Positions 31,917 to 39,430 of a stretch of DNA of 64,000 nt are shown piece by piece. Each line of letters begins with the position of its first letter. Position 1 is the first letter of the stretch. This stretch comes from Falciphora oryzae (taxonomy: Eukaryota; Ascomycota; Sordariomycetes; Magnaporthales; Magnaporthaceae). The notes below the pieces were generated by a model. The model was not told the DNA's origin, ran no database searches, and saw nothing but the letters and a program-made list of their open reading frames with translations. Where the stretch lies: positions 91,148 through 155,147 of the forward strand of contig JNVV01000044.1 of the NCBI GenBank assembly GCA_000733355.1, read 5' to 3'. Both the position numbers and the translations under genes were made by a program.

Positions 31917-32005
31917 TGCTTTTTTCAAAAATCTTAAAAACCGCCGGTTTTTATGATTAGTATGGGAAAAAACTAAAAAACCTTTTGTATTAAACAGCCC
32001 CTTAG
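31917..32005 (-). repeat. Terminal fragment of the DUF6589/RecQ element family
   Basis: Read on the minus strand from about 32005: GGGGCTGTTTAATACAAAAG, then T-rich sequence, CCCATACTA and AAAAACCG. This matches the order at the right end of the 32413-39427 element and the left end of the 42446-43135 element. TTA lies just outside, as expected for this family. pogo-2 inserted into this fragment, so any remainder should continue below 15719. Confidence 0.6.
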
Positions 32006-32409: not shown

Positions 32410-32412
32410 TAA

Positions 32413-33038
32413 GGGCCTGTCCTAGACTATTAGTTTTTTAGTTTTTTGACCCCCCTTGCCGGTTTTTTGGATAAGCGAGGATCGTCACAAGGGGCCCTGC
32501 AATAAAAAATGTACCTTTATAAAAAGGCTCTTCCCGGCCACGCACCCTTTTTCTCCCGCACCCAACCCCACCCCGGTATCGATCGCCATGCAATTTTTTA
32601 TAGCGCACCCACACAAAACGGACATGGGCTTCAAAAGGGAAGCATTTACAGCACGGGCGCGTCAATTGACACCTCTGCACCTCTGCACCTCTGCACCTTT
32701 GCACCTTTGCACTTTTATTTGCACCTCTACTTGCTAGTCTCAGTGGCTCAGACCAGATAAGGGGCGAAGGTCACACAAGTCACTTTTTCTCCACTCCCAG
32801 CCACAGCATTAATTTAACCAATCATAATCCCCACACAACTTCGCCGCCATCTGGTCTGAGGTCGGATGGTGCGAAAAGCGTTATTGATTTTCTAAATCCC
32901 ACCAAACTACCAAACCACCAAAATTGCATTTTTCCATTCCCCCTACCATACCACGCGTGCAATTCGCATCTACCAGGCGATTTATTCGAATCTGCGCCTA
33001 CGAAAATTAAAATTCCTACTATTTCTGCAATCTTTGCA
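32413..33038. promoter_or_regulatory. Left subterminal region, upstream of the DUF6589-like gene
   Basis: Contains a TATA-like TATAAAAAG at about 32517-32525, a CACCTCTG-type microsatellite (about 32668-32730), and a 12-base inverted repeat, CTCAGACCAGAT (32747-32758) and ATCTGGTCTGAG (32849-32860). About 100 bases from 32450 are similar to the right end of the miniature element (minus strand of 43020-43110), including CAATAAAAAATGTACCTT. Confidence 0.6.
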
Positions 33039-35958
33039 ATGTTTTCCCCATCGTCTTTTTCCTACTTGCCTGCCTTCCCTTCCGGGCAGCCGCCGCAAAA
33101 TGCCCCTGATGCCGCGGTCCCTACGTCGGATCTTACGATTCCCCCAACATTACCATTTCCGCCGCCGTCGCTCGAATCCGACTTTGACTCCGAATCCGAC
33201 TCCGAATCCGATACGCCGTTGAACATCTTCCCCAATTTGACGCCTCGTCCGCCTGCTTCCGATTCCCCTTCCGTCGCCCAGCATCGCCGATTGCAGAACC
33301 GTCGACTAAGGGTCGCCGCATCTTCCCACGAACCCCGCCCCCACCTCCCATTTGACGATGCCTTCGAGGCGCCCGACGAAACCAACATGTTCGCCGATAA
33401 TCTAGTAGACGAAACACTAGAATGCTGGCGCGCCCGTCACCATACTATCCGCGGGCAGCATCATTCTACTTTCGCACATTTTATCAAACAATGGGCGTGC
33501 CAGCGCCGCAGCGACGGTCAACGCAATGGACCTCGCCTCCATCAATTCCGCGCTTCTTTGCAAGACCCCGAAGTCAAAAGCGCTCTCTTTGAAACCGGCG
33601 TTGAGGTCCGATTCGATGGCGAAGGCCAACCCGCAGACGCGTACCATACCACCCTCCGCCGAGAGCTCGACAACCTTACCGCATTCAACCCTTTTAACAC
33701 CTTCGACCCCGAACAGTATTGTGAAGGGGAAGACCTTTACAGCGCTAAAGACATTTGCGACGTTACCTGGGTGAAAAAAGACCTTGTCCAGAGCGACACG
33801 CGCTTTCAAGAACATGCGCCTCACTTGTACCAGTTGCTGACTGCTGTCATGGCCAACTCCCGCGCCGATTGGGACTCCTACGGCCCCAACCAACATACCC
33901 CCAACCCTATAACAAAGGGGGGACCGTCCCCGCCCAAAAAAGACAAAAACATTGGCCCCCGGTTCTTAATCGCGAGTTTGATGGCACACGCGCGGGCGCC
34001 TAAGAAGAGCAATTATTTGGGGCGGATATTTGGGGTGTATTAGGTGCAGAGCGGGGTTACCAAAAGGGTGACGAATGTGCTCGCGAAATTCGGAATCAGT
34101 TCGTCTTACAGGGTTACGAAGAAGCAAATGGGCGGGCTGGTAGATAGGGCTACAGTACGTATAACTACCAGCTAAATAATGTATAATTATATAGTTAGTT
34201 AACTATAGATATTTTATTTAGAAAAACCTCAAACGCATCGCACTCGATCCCAGTCTCACCTTCGTTTACGACAATTTTAACTTCATAGACCGGGTCCAAG
34301 ACCTCGGTCATAGCCGCAAAGACGTTATGCGGAATATCACCATTTGCCTCGCTATCGGGAACCCTAATATCGTCCGCTACACCTAGTCTTAATGGCATGC
34401 GACCGTACCGTTTAACGACGAATGGCTTTTGGGGCCGTATATGTCCGCATCACCTCAAACTATGGCGCAGTGCTCCGATTTTTTTTTCCGCTATGAGACG
34501 ATGCATTATCTTTTTGGAGGGAAGCTCCCTTTTTATTTCTTAGACCGTCAGTTCCCCGAAGTTGCCCGCGTTACTACGCCAAAGTCCTACATTATCCAAA
34601 CCCCTGCTATTATGGAAAACGAAGGGGAGCTTGGCGGCGTCCTTCGGATACACGAAAAACTATTCCAAGGATTGCTCGGCCTTAAACCGGACATTTTCGA
34701 TTACGATAACGTACTTTTCCTCCTGCATGGCGACCAGAAAACCACGTCCTTTATCAGGTATGTTCAATTTGCTCAGCTCGAATGCACGACACCTTTCGAC
34801 CGCAAGCAATGGATGCTTCCTATCCCGGCATTTTTTTACGTCCAGCACAATTTTATTTATCATGTTTGGAAGGAATTTTCTCCTCTGGTTAAGGCCGACG
34901 TATTGGGCCTGGGTCGCACCCAGAAACTTTCGGTTGCCAAGCCAGAGTTTTATTATGCGATTCGACTGCTCCAGGACGCCTACCGCGCACGCGTCCTCGC
35001 CATGGTTATATACGTGCTGCAACAGGACGACAAACTTCCCAAAGGTTAAGGCCTCACCCCTTTTGCGGTAGAGGATGCATTTGCTGCGGCGCCCCCAAAT
35101 TATATGGACCAAACACTGGCTAAAGTACACATCGACGCATTTTTTCAACGTGCTACCGCTGGTTTGTACCCAGATACACCTGGACTTATCAACATCCCTT
35201 TCCGGTTACAATGTCGGTACCTCCAAATTATACAACTCCTTTGGACTATTAACGAAGCTGTACGCCGGGGAGATTTCGGCGTCCTTTAACAGCATATCCC
35301 TCTCTTTGTATTTTTTTTTTACGGATGCAAAGCCAAAAACTATGGGCCAGAAATGCTGTATCTGGCTTGGCTTTTGCATCCAGAAGTTACAGACGAGCCG
35401 CTTCGCACGGGTATCCTTCGGTCAGGTCTCGTCCGCTGTACTACAGCCGGCAGCGGGTTTAAACCTATCGACCTTGCCATCGAACACCTTAACAAAGCAT
35501 TTTCGCTCGACATCCAAGCCAATAAAAACTCTACCTATGATATGTGGGCTACCTTTAGAGACTGTGCCGCTCTCGGACCGATAGGAGCAGTTATTCGGAA
35601 GGTATTGGAAATAGAGTTTGGCCAATACAATAATGCTTGACACATAGTGGCATCGACCAAGCAAGACGTCCTGCAATATGCTTGCCTGTTTGTTAACAAC
35701 GGGAATGGGAGCAGGTACGACAAGGTGAATTAAAACGCCGAATTCGATGCCCCGCCGCTTTTCCAAAAAGGAATGAAGCATATGCTTAATGGCAAATTGG
35801 ATACGTTTAATCGAACCATTGTCCGGCCCATCGACGTATATTATCAGCAGGGTTTGGCAGTAGCAGAAGAGGGAATAGCCGATCTGGTTATCGAAAATAG
35901 GGAGGGCGAGCGTGAATATTTTTCAGGGGACGACGACGATAGCGGGGCTGAGGCGTAA
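33039..35958 (+). pseudogene. DUF6589-like protein gene, broken by in-frame stops
   Basis: Start ATG 33039. N-terminus is Pro/Ser-rich with an acidic DSESDSESD run. Conserved family-like blocks follow: LGRIFGVY*VQSGVTKRV and SYRVTKKQMGGLVDRA (about 34010-34160), YDNFNFIDRVQDLGHS (about 34270-34320), FLLHGDQKTTSFIRYVQF (about 34720-34770), FKPIDLAIEHLNKAF (about 35460-35505), and an acidic C-terminus ending at 35958. A likely intron is at about 34156-34222 (GTACGT...TTTAG); splicing keeps the frame. Stops interrupt at 34041, 34384, 34390, 35047, 35287, 35638 and 35731 (six TAA/TAG, one TGA). Function of the family is not established; acidic residues in the DNF and GDQ blocks could be catalytic. 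Confidence 0.75.
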
Positions 35959-36034
35959 ATGCTGGGTTCATCCCGGAGTTCCGCAACGCTAAATAAGGAC
36001 CCCCCTAGTATCCTCCGTCGGCCCATTGCACCCG

Positions 36035-38357
36035 TTATCGTCTTTTCGGCGGGGTTGACTGCTTAGAAACTCCAGATGCCCTTATGTTCCGTTTCCTTCG
36101 CCCGCTTGAACCAGCACCAGTAGGCTGGGACGCTTTGGCCCTACGGTTGGCCTTATCTTTTTCCTTCCACGTATAGTATGCTGCTATGCCCCTGGCTTTA
36201 ATGTCTTCGCATTTTTGCACCAACAGCTGGCCGTATGGAACGAGCCAATGCTTGCATGCACTTTGGCTGATAGCTTTTACCCGCCGGCACAGGTCGTCAA
36301 CGTCCTGGATGGGCCTGTCGGTTGATTTGAGGTCGAGCGAAAGCTGTACCGCAATTTCGGGCTTTAACATCCACTCGCCAGGCAGGTCGAGCCATCGCCA
36401 CTCGTTGGGGCTGATGACGTATGTGGCAAGGTAGGACGCATATTTCATCAACTCTTGGTAAATGAACCATTCCATCGTACGTGCGCGTACAGTAGGATCC
36501 TTCGATTTTTCGACCACCGTTAAAGGAAGTCGCCCGAGCTTATGGTGGCATGCGTTGCAGCATTTGGTATGCTCGACTGACGAAGGATTTACTTTTTGCA
36601 GCAAGTCGAGTGTCGTTTGCCTAAAGCATTTGGCATTGGCGAATTCGTATATTTCGGGATGCGCCTTTTGAAATTTTCCGCGTCGGCGGATGTCGTCGTT
36701 TGTCCATTTTTCGTATTGCTTCCCGGAAAAGATACCCAATTCCAGGTCGAACTCGCTGCCAGTTACCGGTATCATTTGGCTGCCGGCTATACTGGATTCT
36801 ACGTCGATAATGGAGAACCGGGCTTGAGAATAGTCCGACCCTGACAGTTGAGAATCGTCTGCTTTTGTGGACGTACCGGAGGCGGCTGTTCCAAACCGCA
36901 AACTGTTAGATACCGTAGGAGTATGAGTTTTTTTCGAGCCACGTTTGGGTTTGACTGGTTTAGGGACACTGGTCCCTATGGTGTCGAAATACCAGTAGGG
37001 GGCAAAAAAATAGGCTGTGCCTTGCCCCACAGCGGACCGGGACGCTTTGCCGAACCGCTGGACCAGATCCGCTACATCCAATGAGATCGGTGCCCTGAAC
37101 TGTACCACGCGCATTACATCTGGAATATCTATGCCTATACCCAGCGATACAGTAGCTAAAATAAATCGAATCGTAGAGTCGGTGCGCCGGAATATGTTGT
37201 AGATGATGCGCTGGTCCGTCGATGGTGTTAGGGAATGGTAGGTCATAATGGTGCGGGTAGCGGTATTTTTATCGACCCCTTTCGACGTTAGGTAATGGAG
37301 GAGTGAGTGACGAGCGTTGACGAGCTCCGATTTGTTGTTTATATAGATGATGGTTTTGGGAATAGATTGAAGAGGTGTGTCCGGTTGGACGTTGGCGAGA
37401 AGAAACAGCAGTGGATTGTGATTTTTTTGCAGTTTCTTCCTTGCTAACGCTTGGAGGACGATGGTGATATCTGGCCGGTCGACAGACGTACGTATAATCC
37501 GGAGCTGGTTTACGCTTGGGCCGAGCTGCCGGAAGCCGGTATGAGATAATACGAAGGCTTCTGCTTCTGCGGTTAAGGTGGCAGTATACCCAAAAAAGGG
37601 AATAGATATGGGGATGGCAGACCGGATTAGGTGAAGATTGGGGTAAGAAGTGCGGAATTTTTTCCATTGATGGACCGTATGGAGTTCGTCGATGGCAATG
37701 AACGCAATGTGCTGGTTAAATTCAGTATGGCGGAGGAGAGCGAGAAACCGCGCATTTGTGGCTTGTTCCGGACCCAGGAGGATGTGGGTGTATTGCGTGG
37801 CTTTCTGTGCGTTCCAGATATCGGCATCCTATTATTTATATATTAGTATTTATTATTTCCATTAATTTGACCGCGTAAAGGAGTACTTTGCGTGTGGTTT
37901 GGTTAATAAGGATGGGGTTGGCAAAAGGGAACCTGGCAACCATTTCGGCTTGTTCTTCCCCCAGTTTGCTCAGGGGGATGATCTGGATAGTAATATGCCT
38001 GTTTTTGATAATAGACACTGCTTGGAATACGATGCTTTTGCCGTATCCAGTTTTGGCAATGAGTATCGTATTTCCCAGTTGGTAGATAATACGCCGGATG
38101 CACTCGATCTGATCGGGTTTAGGATGACGGGGTTTTTGGCCTGTTGGCGTCTTTTGGTTAAGGAGAGACGTAGTAATAGCTTTTATAAACTGTTTTTGCA
38201 TATCGAGATCGTTTGCGCATGCGGAATACTTATACAATTCTGAAATAACCTGACGGAAAGGCACGGTTTGAACCTGCTTTCCAGCTAGATTCTTGCTGCT
38301 AGCGATGGCAGAGAGCAAAAACGCAACACGGGGGGCGCGAGCCACTAGCCCAGCCAT
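36035..38357 (-). CDS. RecQ-like DNA helicase, two exons, intact
   Basis: Exons 38357-37887 and 37828-36035 give about 754 residues. The 58-nt intron (37886-37829) starts GTACTC, contains TACTAAT and ends TAG; it is phase 0. Superfamily 2 motifs: Walker A TGYGKS, DExH motif IAIDELHTVHQW with the RecQ aromatic loop (QW, then FR, then Y), motif III GYTATLT, motif V ATVSLGIGID, motif VI QRFGKASR in place of the usual QxxGRxGR. A four-Cys zinc region reads CFRQTTLDLL...CCNAC. The C-terminus is basic. No internal stop occurs, unlike the convergent partner. Start chosen at ATG 38355-38357; an upstream exon is possible because a TATA-like site lies far upstream near 39222. It could unwind DNA during element replication or repair; this is inferred. 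Confidence 0.85.
37829..37886 (-). other. Intron of the RecQ-like helicase gene
   Basis: 58 nt, GT...AG on the minus strand, with a TACTAAT branch site about 20 bases before the acceptor. Removing it joins NQTTRK to DADIWNAQ in frame; reading through it gives no conserved helicase sequence. Confidence 0.85.
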
Positions 38358-39427
38358 ATTTGGCTCCAAATTTGGAGCCGGTACTAGACCTGGTGGTCGA
38401 TTTGATATGGGGGTAGCTGGGTGAGGCTATTCCCAAGGTGTAAGAAATTGCTCCTTTTCGATTAGCAAACCTATTTCTAGTCCGAATACCGAACACAAAA
38501 AAATATCATTGGATACAGAACATTAAGCTTACCCCCAACGTTTTATTTTTGAGCCCAGATGAATTGGGTCGAATGGCGAGATTTTGGAGTGAAGTTTGTG
38601 GGATTTTTATATTGTGTGGGCGATCCTAAGGTGTAAGCCCGAAAATCACCATGCGATCCCAGACTCAAACCACAAAAAGACCCCAGCCCCACAGTACATC
38701 TGCACGGACCAGTGACTCGAGCGTGAGCCACATCGTGAGCCACAACCCACCGGAGGTGGGTCGCTCACTGAAGGTGGGTTCCCTTTTTGTGGGCTTTGAG
38801 TCTGGGCCTCTGAGACTATCTACTTGCACCTTTTTGCGCACCTTTTCGCGCGTACCGTTTCGCGCGGATTTTGTGGCTGGATGCCTGGGCCTCAGTGGCT
38901 TTATCGCAAATGCGCGACTAATGGCATTAAGTTTGTCAGCAGCGAAACCGCTTTGTGCACAGGCTAAACGTGGGGCAGCGGGGTAAAGGCGGCGGGGTAA
39001 AAGCGGCAGCAGTTTGCAAGCGAATTTCCCTTTTAGGAAGTAGCAAAAAAAAAAAATTATTATTATCTGGTCCTATTTGCACGCGCCAAAACCCTCGTGC
39101 CCGGCCTATTAAACGTGCCCGGCCTTTTAAACGTGCCCGGCCCTCCCTAGGGCGGCCCTTTTTTTAGGTTCGAAATTTCTCCAAATCAAACTTTTTCGAA
39201 GGCGGGAGGGTCGTTAGCTTTATATATTCAATAAGTGGCACAGGAGCTGGCAAAGGAGCTGGCTAGGGCCCGGGGGCCGCGACTCGTTGTCCTGCGAAAA
39301 GATACTTCTGGCGGGTCTTCCGAAAGATCTTCACAAGGGTTTGCGTGGACCCGCAAACTGGTTTTCAAGCGGTTTTTAAAAATAGTATGGGAAAATCCAA
39401 AAACCCGATTTACTCTAGGACAGGCCC
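38358..39427 (-). promoter_or_regulatory. Right subterminal region, upstream of the helicase gene
   Basis: Holds an imperfect inverted repeat of about 23 bases (38658-38680 and 38782-38806, arms CCCAGACTCAAA / TTTGAGTCTGGG), three 18-bp tandem units CGTGCCCGGCC(T/C)... (39096-39146), and a minus-strand TATA-like TATATAAAG near 39220-39229. From about 39020 to the terminus it resembles the left end of the miniature element at 42446-42960 read in the opposite direction, so it probably contains conserved ends or a promoter. Confidence 0.6.
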
Positions 39428-39430
39428 TAA

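Follow-up and report, generated by a model that had tools for sequence, protein, structure and literature searches.

A helicase-bearing transposon with a probable DUF6589 transposase lies nested in a smaller element of the fungus Falciphora oryzae

A stretch of 64,000 nucleotides from Falciphora oryzae (assembly GCA_000733355.1, contig JNVV01000044.1, positions 91,148–155,147 of the forward strand; the whole of it is called the window here) contains two convergent genes, one for a DUF6589 protein (Pfam PF20231) and one for a RecQ-like helicase, lying between short inverted ends. The locus raises the question of whether ends and genes form a single mobile element and, if not, what it is that carries the genes. 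An earlier note on this DNA had described inverted 14-base ends with TAA on both sides, and had taken these to bound both genes. The genes are confirmed, the ends, GGGCCTGTCCTAGA, are present at 32413–32426 and 39414–39427, and TAA stands on both sides; the boundaries and the duplication assigned to the genes were nevertheless wrong, two elements having been read as one. Both genes belong to an inner transposon of 6,084 bp (32735–38818) that has inverted ends of its own and is flanked on each side by one copy of a duplicated 9-bp target, TCTACTTGC. In our judgement this is probably a cut-and-paste transposon of the AcademH type, with a DUF6589 transposase and an accessory helicase, that inserted into a small outer element and then underwent decay resembling repeat-induced point mutation (RIP).

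Comparison with the rest of the genome, in which the match counts are lower bounds, places these boundaries. When a 1,001-base query from the left end was searched, the eight best matches besides the window began at query positions 321–323 (window 32733–32735), and other matches spanned only query 1–316 or 1–296. With a query from the right end, gene-bearing copies finished at query 519–523 (window 38818–38822), apart from one at 535 (38834), and copies of the outer element, for example on contig C77, began at query 520. The gene-bearing and outer-only sets of matches abut at 32735 and 38818. An empty copy of the outer element (L050, contig C77) is 927 bp long, is flanked by TAA, has a single TCTACTTGC and lacks the inner element. 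The joined flanks of the window align to it with zero differences over 30 bases on either side of the junction and with 888 of 946 alignment columns identical.

These data bear directly on the proposal that the sequence from 32413 to 39427 moved as a whole with TAA duplications. The 14-base ends and the TAA are real, but copies of the genes occur without those ends, which the earlier note had itself named as telling against it, and copies of the outer element occur without the genes. Among the ten other two-ended copies of the inner element L039–L048, in flanks of about 350–480 bp, a 14-base end was found near only one (L040), where it belongs to a separate 229-bp element. The junction of the inner element can be read from the empty outer copy, and the gene copies lack the 14-base ends; the single-element reading is thereby contradicted. 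We rejected the 7-kb element on the copy boundaries and the empty site, and give it next to no credence. The earlier note was right to see a mobile element, though it delimited it wrongly, and the case illustrates how, through nesting, the ends of one element can pass for those of another.

The inner transposon behaves as a repeated family. Its left end, TAGTCTCAGTGGCTCAGAC, is 89% complementary to the end at 38800–38818, and a 24-base version of it matches 57 places in the genome when as many as three mismatches are allowed, compared with none for the reversed control. Sixteen copies have both inner ends read (the count excludes single-end stretches, L062 and two split copies), and the 9-bp duplication is perfect in 11 of them: the window, L039, L040, L041, L045, L046, L047, L059, and copies on contigs C23 (L060/L065), C16 (L064) and C69 (L066/L067). 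Two more (L043 and L044) match at eight of nine positions, with a C/T difference. The duplicated target sequence varies between copies. Among the 16 are copies that carry both genes at roughly 66–98% DNA identity to that of the window, two more distant copies with helicase protein identities of 49% (C59) and 42% (C23), and a 140-bp unit (L063).

The DUF6589 gene is the most likely source of the transposase. The window frame matches PF20231 in two pieces (E values 7.4e-21 and 1.2e-16) and is interrupted by seven stops, one in exon 1 and six in exon 2; in L039 (contig C92), which is 97.6% identical to the window copy, transposase and helicase are both open, and the exon–intron models of both genes were read from that sequence, without transcripts. 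Structure prediction, which the earlier note had recommended, gave an RNase H-like DDE transposase fold for the DUF6589 exon model, with the P element and Hermes as nearest solved folds and RAG1/Transib also close. On this predicted fold the protein is most likely the transposase, as the earlier note had supposed, and would use Asp/Asp/Glu catalysis. A candidate for the third catalytic residue is E421 (exon-2 numbering), which agrees with the limits of the ranges aligned to the P element, Hermes and RAG1 if their catalytic residues are where we take them to be; E377 of the same exon is equally conserved.

In a Pfam scan of six DUF6589 proteins to an E value of 10, DUF6589 was the sole family matched. 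Two protein searches, each scoring only about 8,000 best candidates, returned 33 and 38 relatives, with PF20231 in 31 of the 33 and in all 38; the minority that carry an organism name are ascomycetes. No DUF6589 relative was confirmed among 101 pattern matches in viral contigs or 35 in bacterial and archaeal genomes. The name DUF6589 appeared nowhere in the literature searched, and PF20231 only in unrelated work; because most subscription papers lie outside that literature, we do not claim that the link to transposases is unpublished.

The second gene travels with the first. Across the genome, the 47 DUF6589 matches form 42 clusters, and a helicase match lies within 6 kb in 36 of these, convergent in all 36, which bears out the idea of an accompanying gene. 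Searched against solved structures, the helicase matched members of the RecQ family, best of all WRN (E value 1.7e-11), and judged by such matches it may fairly be called RecQ-like; to call it a true RecQ would be too firm. Its L039 model has a 58-bp intron. The window copy had been described as intact; its frame is indeed open, but the likely start Met, common to L039 and L045, reads Ile, and the Arg of QRFGRASR, which we take to be motif VI, reads Lys. In the 6-kb pairing test, 11 helicase clusters had no DUF6589 partner. Four of these (C6, C9:118733, C11 and C54:188823) have open frames and match at just 25–28% identity; these probably belong to the host. The RecQ-like genes beside DUF6589 in this genome are probably transposon-borne and not host genes.

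We propose that an AcademH-type element spanning 32735–38818 inserted into the small outer element with 14-base ends. The DUF6589 DDE transposase would bind the TAGTCTCAG ends, excise the element and join the ends to the target with a 9-bp stagger, producing the 9-bp duplication. The convergent helicase, encoded between the same ends, would serve as an accessory enzyme, perhaps opening strands at the ends or processing the gapped product. C-to-T mutation resembling RIP then broke the transposase of the window copy; elsewhere in the genome, L039 has both genes open.

We treat the boundaries, the duplication, the empty site, the gene pairing and the predicted fold as established. Several observations weigh against the wider proposal. 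Three of the 16 two-ended copies (L042, L048 and L063) have no duplication. Six of the 42 DUF6589 clusters have no helicase within 6 kb; three of them (C35, C69 and C72) have a correctly oriented helicase 9–16 kb away, that of C69 being already paired with an adjacent DUF6589 fragment, and the other three lack one nearby. The helicase matches the NCBIfam model recQ_fam with an E value of 3.3e-22, yet at 78.9 bits it falls far under the cut-off of 219.8. On the transposase side, the Foldseek match of the DUF6589 model is by itself weak (best E value 0.011), the structural Z score for RAG1 is below 8, a level that the comparison tool calls common, and a sequence search of the transposase against solved structures gave no match. 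Finally, the likeness to AcademH is drawn from published descriptions rather than from comparison with Academ transposase sequences.

The decay of the window copy has a clear direction. Over 6,084 bases it differs from L039 by 149 substitutions, with no indels and no transversions. Read on the plus strand, 136 of them are C-to-T changes, 7 are G to A, 2 are T to C and 4 are A to G, a strongly one-sided pattern. The C-to-T and G-to-A changes mostly precede A or T; 67 of 409 CpA and 63 of 351 CpT sites of the plus strand have changed, compared with 4 of 372 CpA sites of the minus strand. Five further copies carry 616–709 substitutions each relative to L039, of which no fewer than 96% are C-to-T or G-to-A changes. 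This pattern looks like RIP acting mainly on one strand of the window copy, and its one-sidedness partly accounts for the seven stops in the plus-strand transposase beside an open frame in the minus-strand helicase. The RIP-like change has broken the transposase and left the helicase frame open but altered. Since the window copy and L039 are nearly identical apart from such changes, they separated recently relative to ordinary mutation.

The outer element belongs to a separate family, whose two-ended copies, the only ones counted here, measure about 0.2–1.1 kb. All seven distinct copies have 3-bp duplications, TAA in three and CTA, TGA, TCA or TCG in the remainder. PIF/Harbinger elements target TAA or TTA; their 3-bp duplication matches, but the targets of the outer element are not confined to those triplets, and a PIF/Harbinger-type identity is possible. 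The earlier note had also reported a miniature element with matching ends: the window has no second pair of 14-base ends at up to two mismatches, although short two-ended copies do exist elsewhere in the genome. A diverged end resembling this family, CCTTTTGTATTAAACAGCCCC, lies at 31981–32001 and is followed by TTA; a partner was looked for, and none was found.

Other arrangements of the inner ends were seen. On contig C16, a 1.5-kb unit (L064, 74–1605) has no frame above 124 codons, like ends and a perfect 9-bp duplication, and is likely a non-autonomous derivative. At C69:39033–44911 (ends in L066 and L067), a 5.9-kb unit again has like ends and a perfect 9-bp duplication, with no DUF6589 or helicase match inside. 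Two copies appear split: L051 (C16) and L055 (C38), on different contigs, have distant ends that share a duplication at 9 of 9 positions, and L053 and L054, both on C82, share one at 8 of 9; the element may have mediated a rearrangement, or the assembly may be at fault. L062 (C69:68920–69222) has two left-like ends in odd order. At L040 (136–365), another inner element sits at the extreme end of the 229-bp outer-type element, and its 9-bp duplication overlaps the terminal repeat of the latter.

Table 1. Positions of the nested elements and their genes in the window.
Feature	Position	Strand	Basis
Inner transposon, probably AcademH-type	32735..38818		start and end of copies elsewhere; empty site
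Left terminal inverted repeat TAGTCTCAGTGGCTCAGAC	32735..32753	+	89% complementary to right end; genome end matches
Right terminal inverted repeat	38800..38818	-	complementarity to left end; copies
9-bp target duplication TCTACTTGC, left copy	32726..32734		copy comparison; empty site
9-bp target duplication TCTACTTGC, right copy	38819..38827		copy comparison; empty site
Outer element, left part with 14-base end	32413..32734		genome matches; empty copy
Outer element, right part with 14-base end, starting with the second copy of the 9-bp target	38819..39427		genome matches; empty copy
Outer element TAA duplication, left	32410..32412		sequence reading
Outer element TAA duplication, right	39428..39430		sequence reading
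Transposase exon 1	33039..34154	+	372 codons in L039; 1 stop in window; gene model read from sequence
Putative 67-bp intron, GTACGT...TTTAG	34155..34221	+	sequence reading
Transposase exon 2, DUF6589 and predicted DDE core	34222..35955	+	578 codons in L039; 6 stops in window
Helicase exon 1	37887..38408	-	174 codons in L039; Ile in window at the likely start Met
Helicase exon 2	36038..37828	-	597 codons; frame open in window

The step from DUF6589 to a transposase is the useful result and helps in naming this domain: a Pfam family with no assigned function gains a probable role, ascomycete DUF6589 proteins being probably transposases. What a helicase does in DDE transposition also becomes testable, now that the ends are defined and both an empty site and a copy with two open genes are known.

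The nearest solved folds to the DUF6589 model are those of the P element, hAT (Hermes) and RAG1/Transib, none of which was matched by sequence. P elements duplicate 8 bp, and MuDR 9–11 bp. A MuDR/MULE-type element with a helicase would suit the 9-bp duplication and the predicted DDE fold with its helical part, but no MULE-type Pfam match emerged to an E value of 10 in the six DUF6589 proteins; kinship is possible despite the missing match, and we consider this origin very improbable. The duplications described for hAT elements are usually 8 bp, with variants of 5–7 bp (PMC12730594), and we rejected both the hAT and the P families on 9 versus 8 bp despite their folds being nearest. The fungal KDZ elements are alike in having a large DDE transposase and accessory genes, but their duplications are given as 8 bp (Zisupton, Dileera) and 7 bp (Kyakuja) (PMC12730594), and they too were rejected for an element that duplicates 9. 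KolobokH, also fungal, is described as carrying a RecQ helicase beside its DDE transposase, and Kolobok as duplicating TTAA, 4 bp (PMC9587614). It was rejected for the inner element, whose 9-bp targets vary and are not TTAA.

AcademH is reportedly the helicase-bearing lineage of the Academ superfamily, as Kojima is said to have set out in 2020. Its duplications are given as 9 or 10 bp, and those of AcademX as 3 or 4 bp, a difference seemingly tied to the presence of a helicase or a nuclease (PMC10045372). The inner element, with 9 bp, departs from AcademX and agrees with AcademH, as it does in carrying a helicase between the same ends as the transposase. The AcademH transposase is described as DDD/E, and the DUF6589 protein has a predicted DDE fold in which the catalytic Glu is ambiguous; the name DUF6589 is absent from the descriptions of AcademH cited here. 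AcademH is reported from Basidiomycota, Ascomycota and Mucoromycota (PMC10799480), and in ascomycete occurrence, too, no difference from the published description was found. Duplication length and helicase, set against these descriptions, argue for membership of AcademH. The earlier note was pointing in the right direction in citing Academ, though towards its 3-bp branch rather than AcademH.

A less probable reading, which we hold to be unlikely, makes the DUF6589 elements an unnamed DDE superfamily of filamentous ascomycetes outside Academ, with 9-bp duplications, an independently gained RecQ-like helicase and possibly still mobile in this genome. The isolation of DUF6589 within Pfam, as seen in the six proteins scanned, and the lack of any solved structure matched by sequence would suit it, as would the gain of a RecQ helicase by KolobokH (PMC9587614), which implies that DDE–RecQ pairings can arise more than once; if true, it would add a further independent pairing. 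Helicase and 9-bp duplication are, however, both as described for AcademH, and most fungal Academ copies are said to have recognisable domains such as DEAD helicase and recQ_fam (PMC6416283). Because helicase-bearing Academ elements are thus reported from fungi, the suggestion of an undescribed mobile system is weakened; under the AcademH assignment that we prefer, the inner element looks ordinary in kind, a member of a published but little-studied transposon group.
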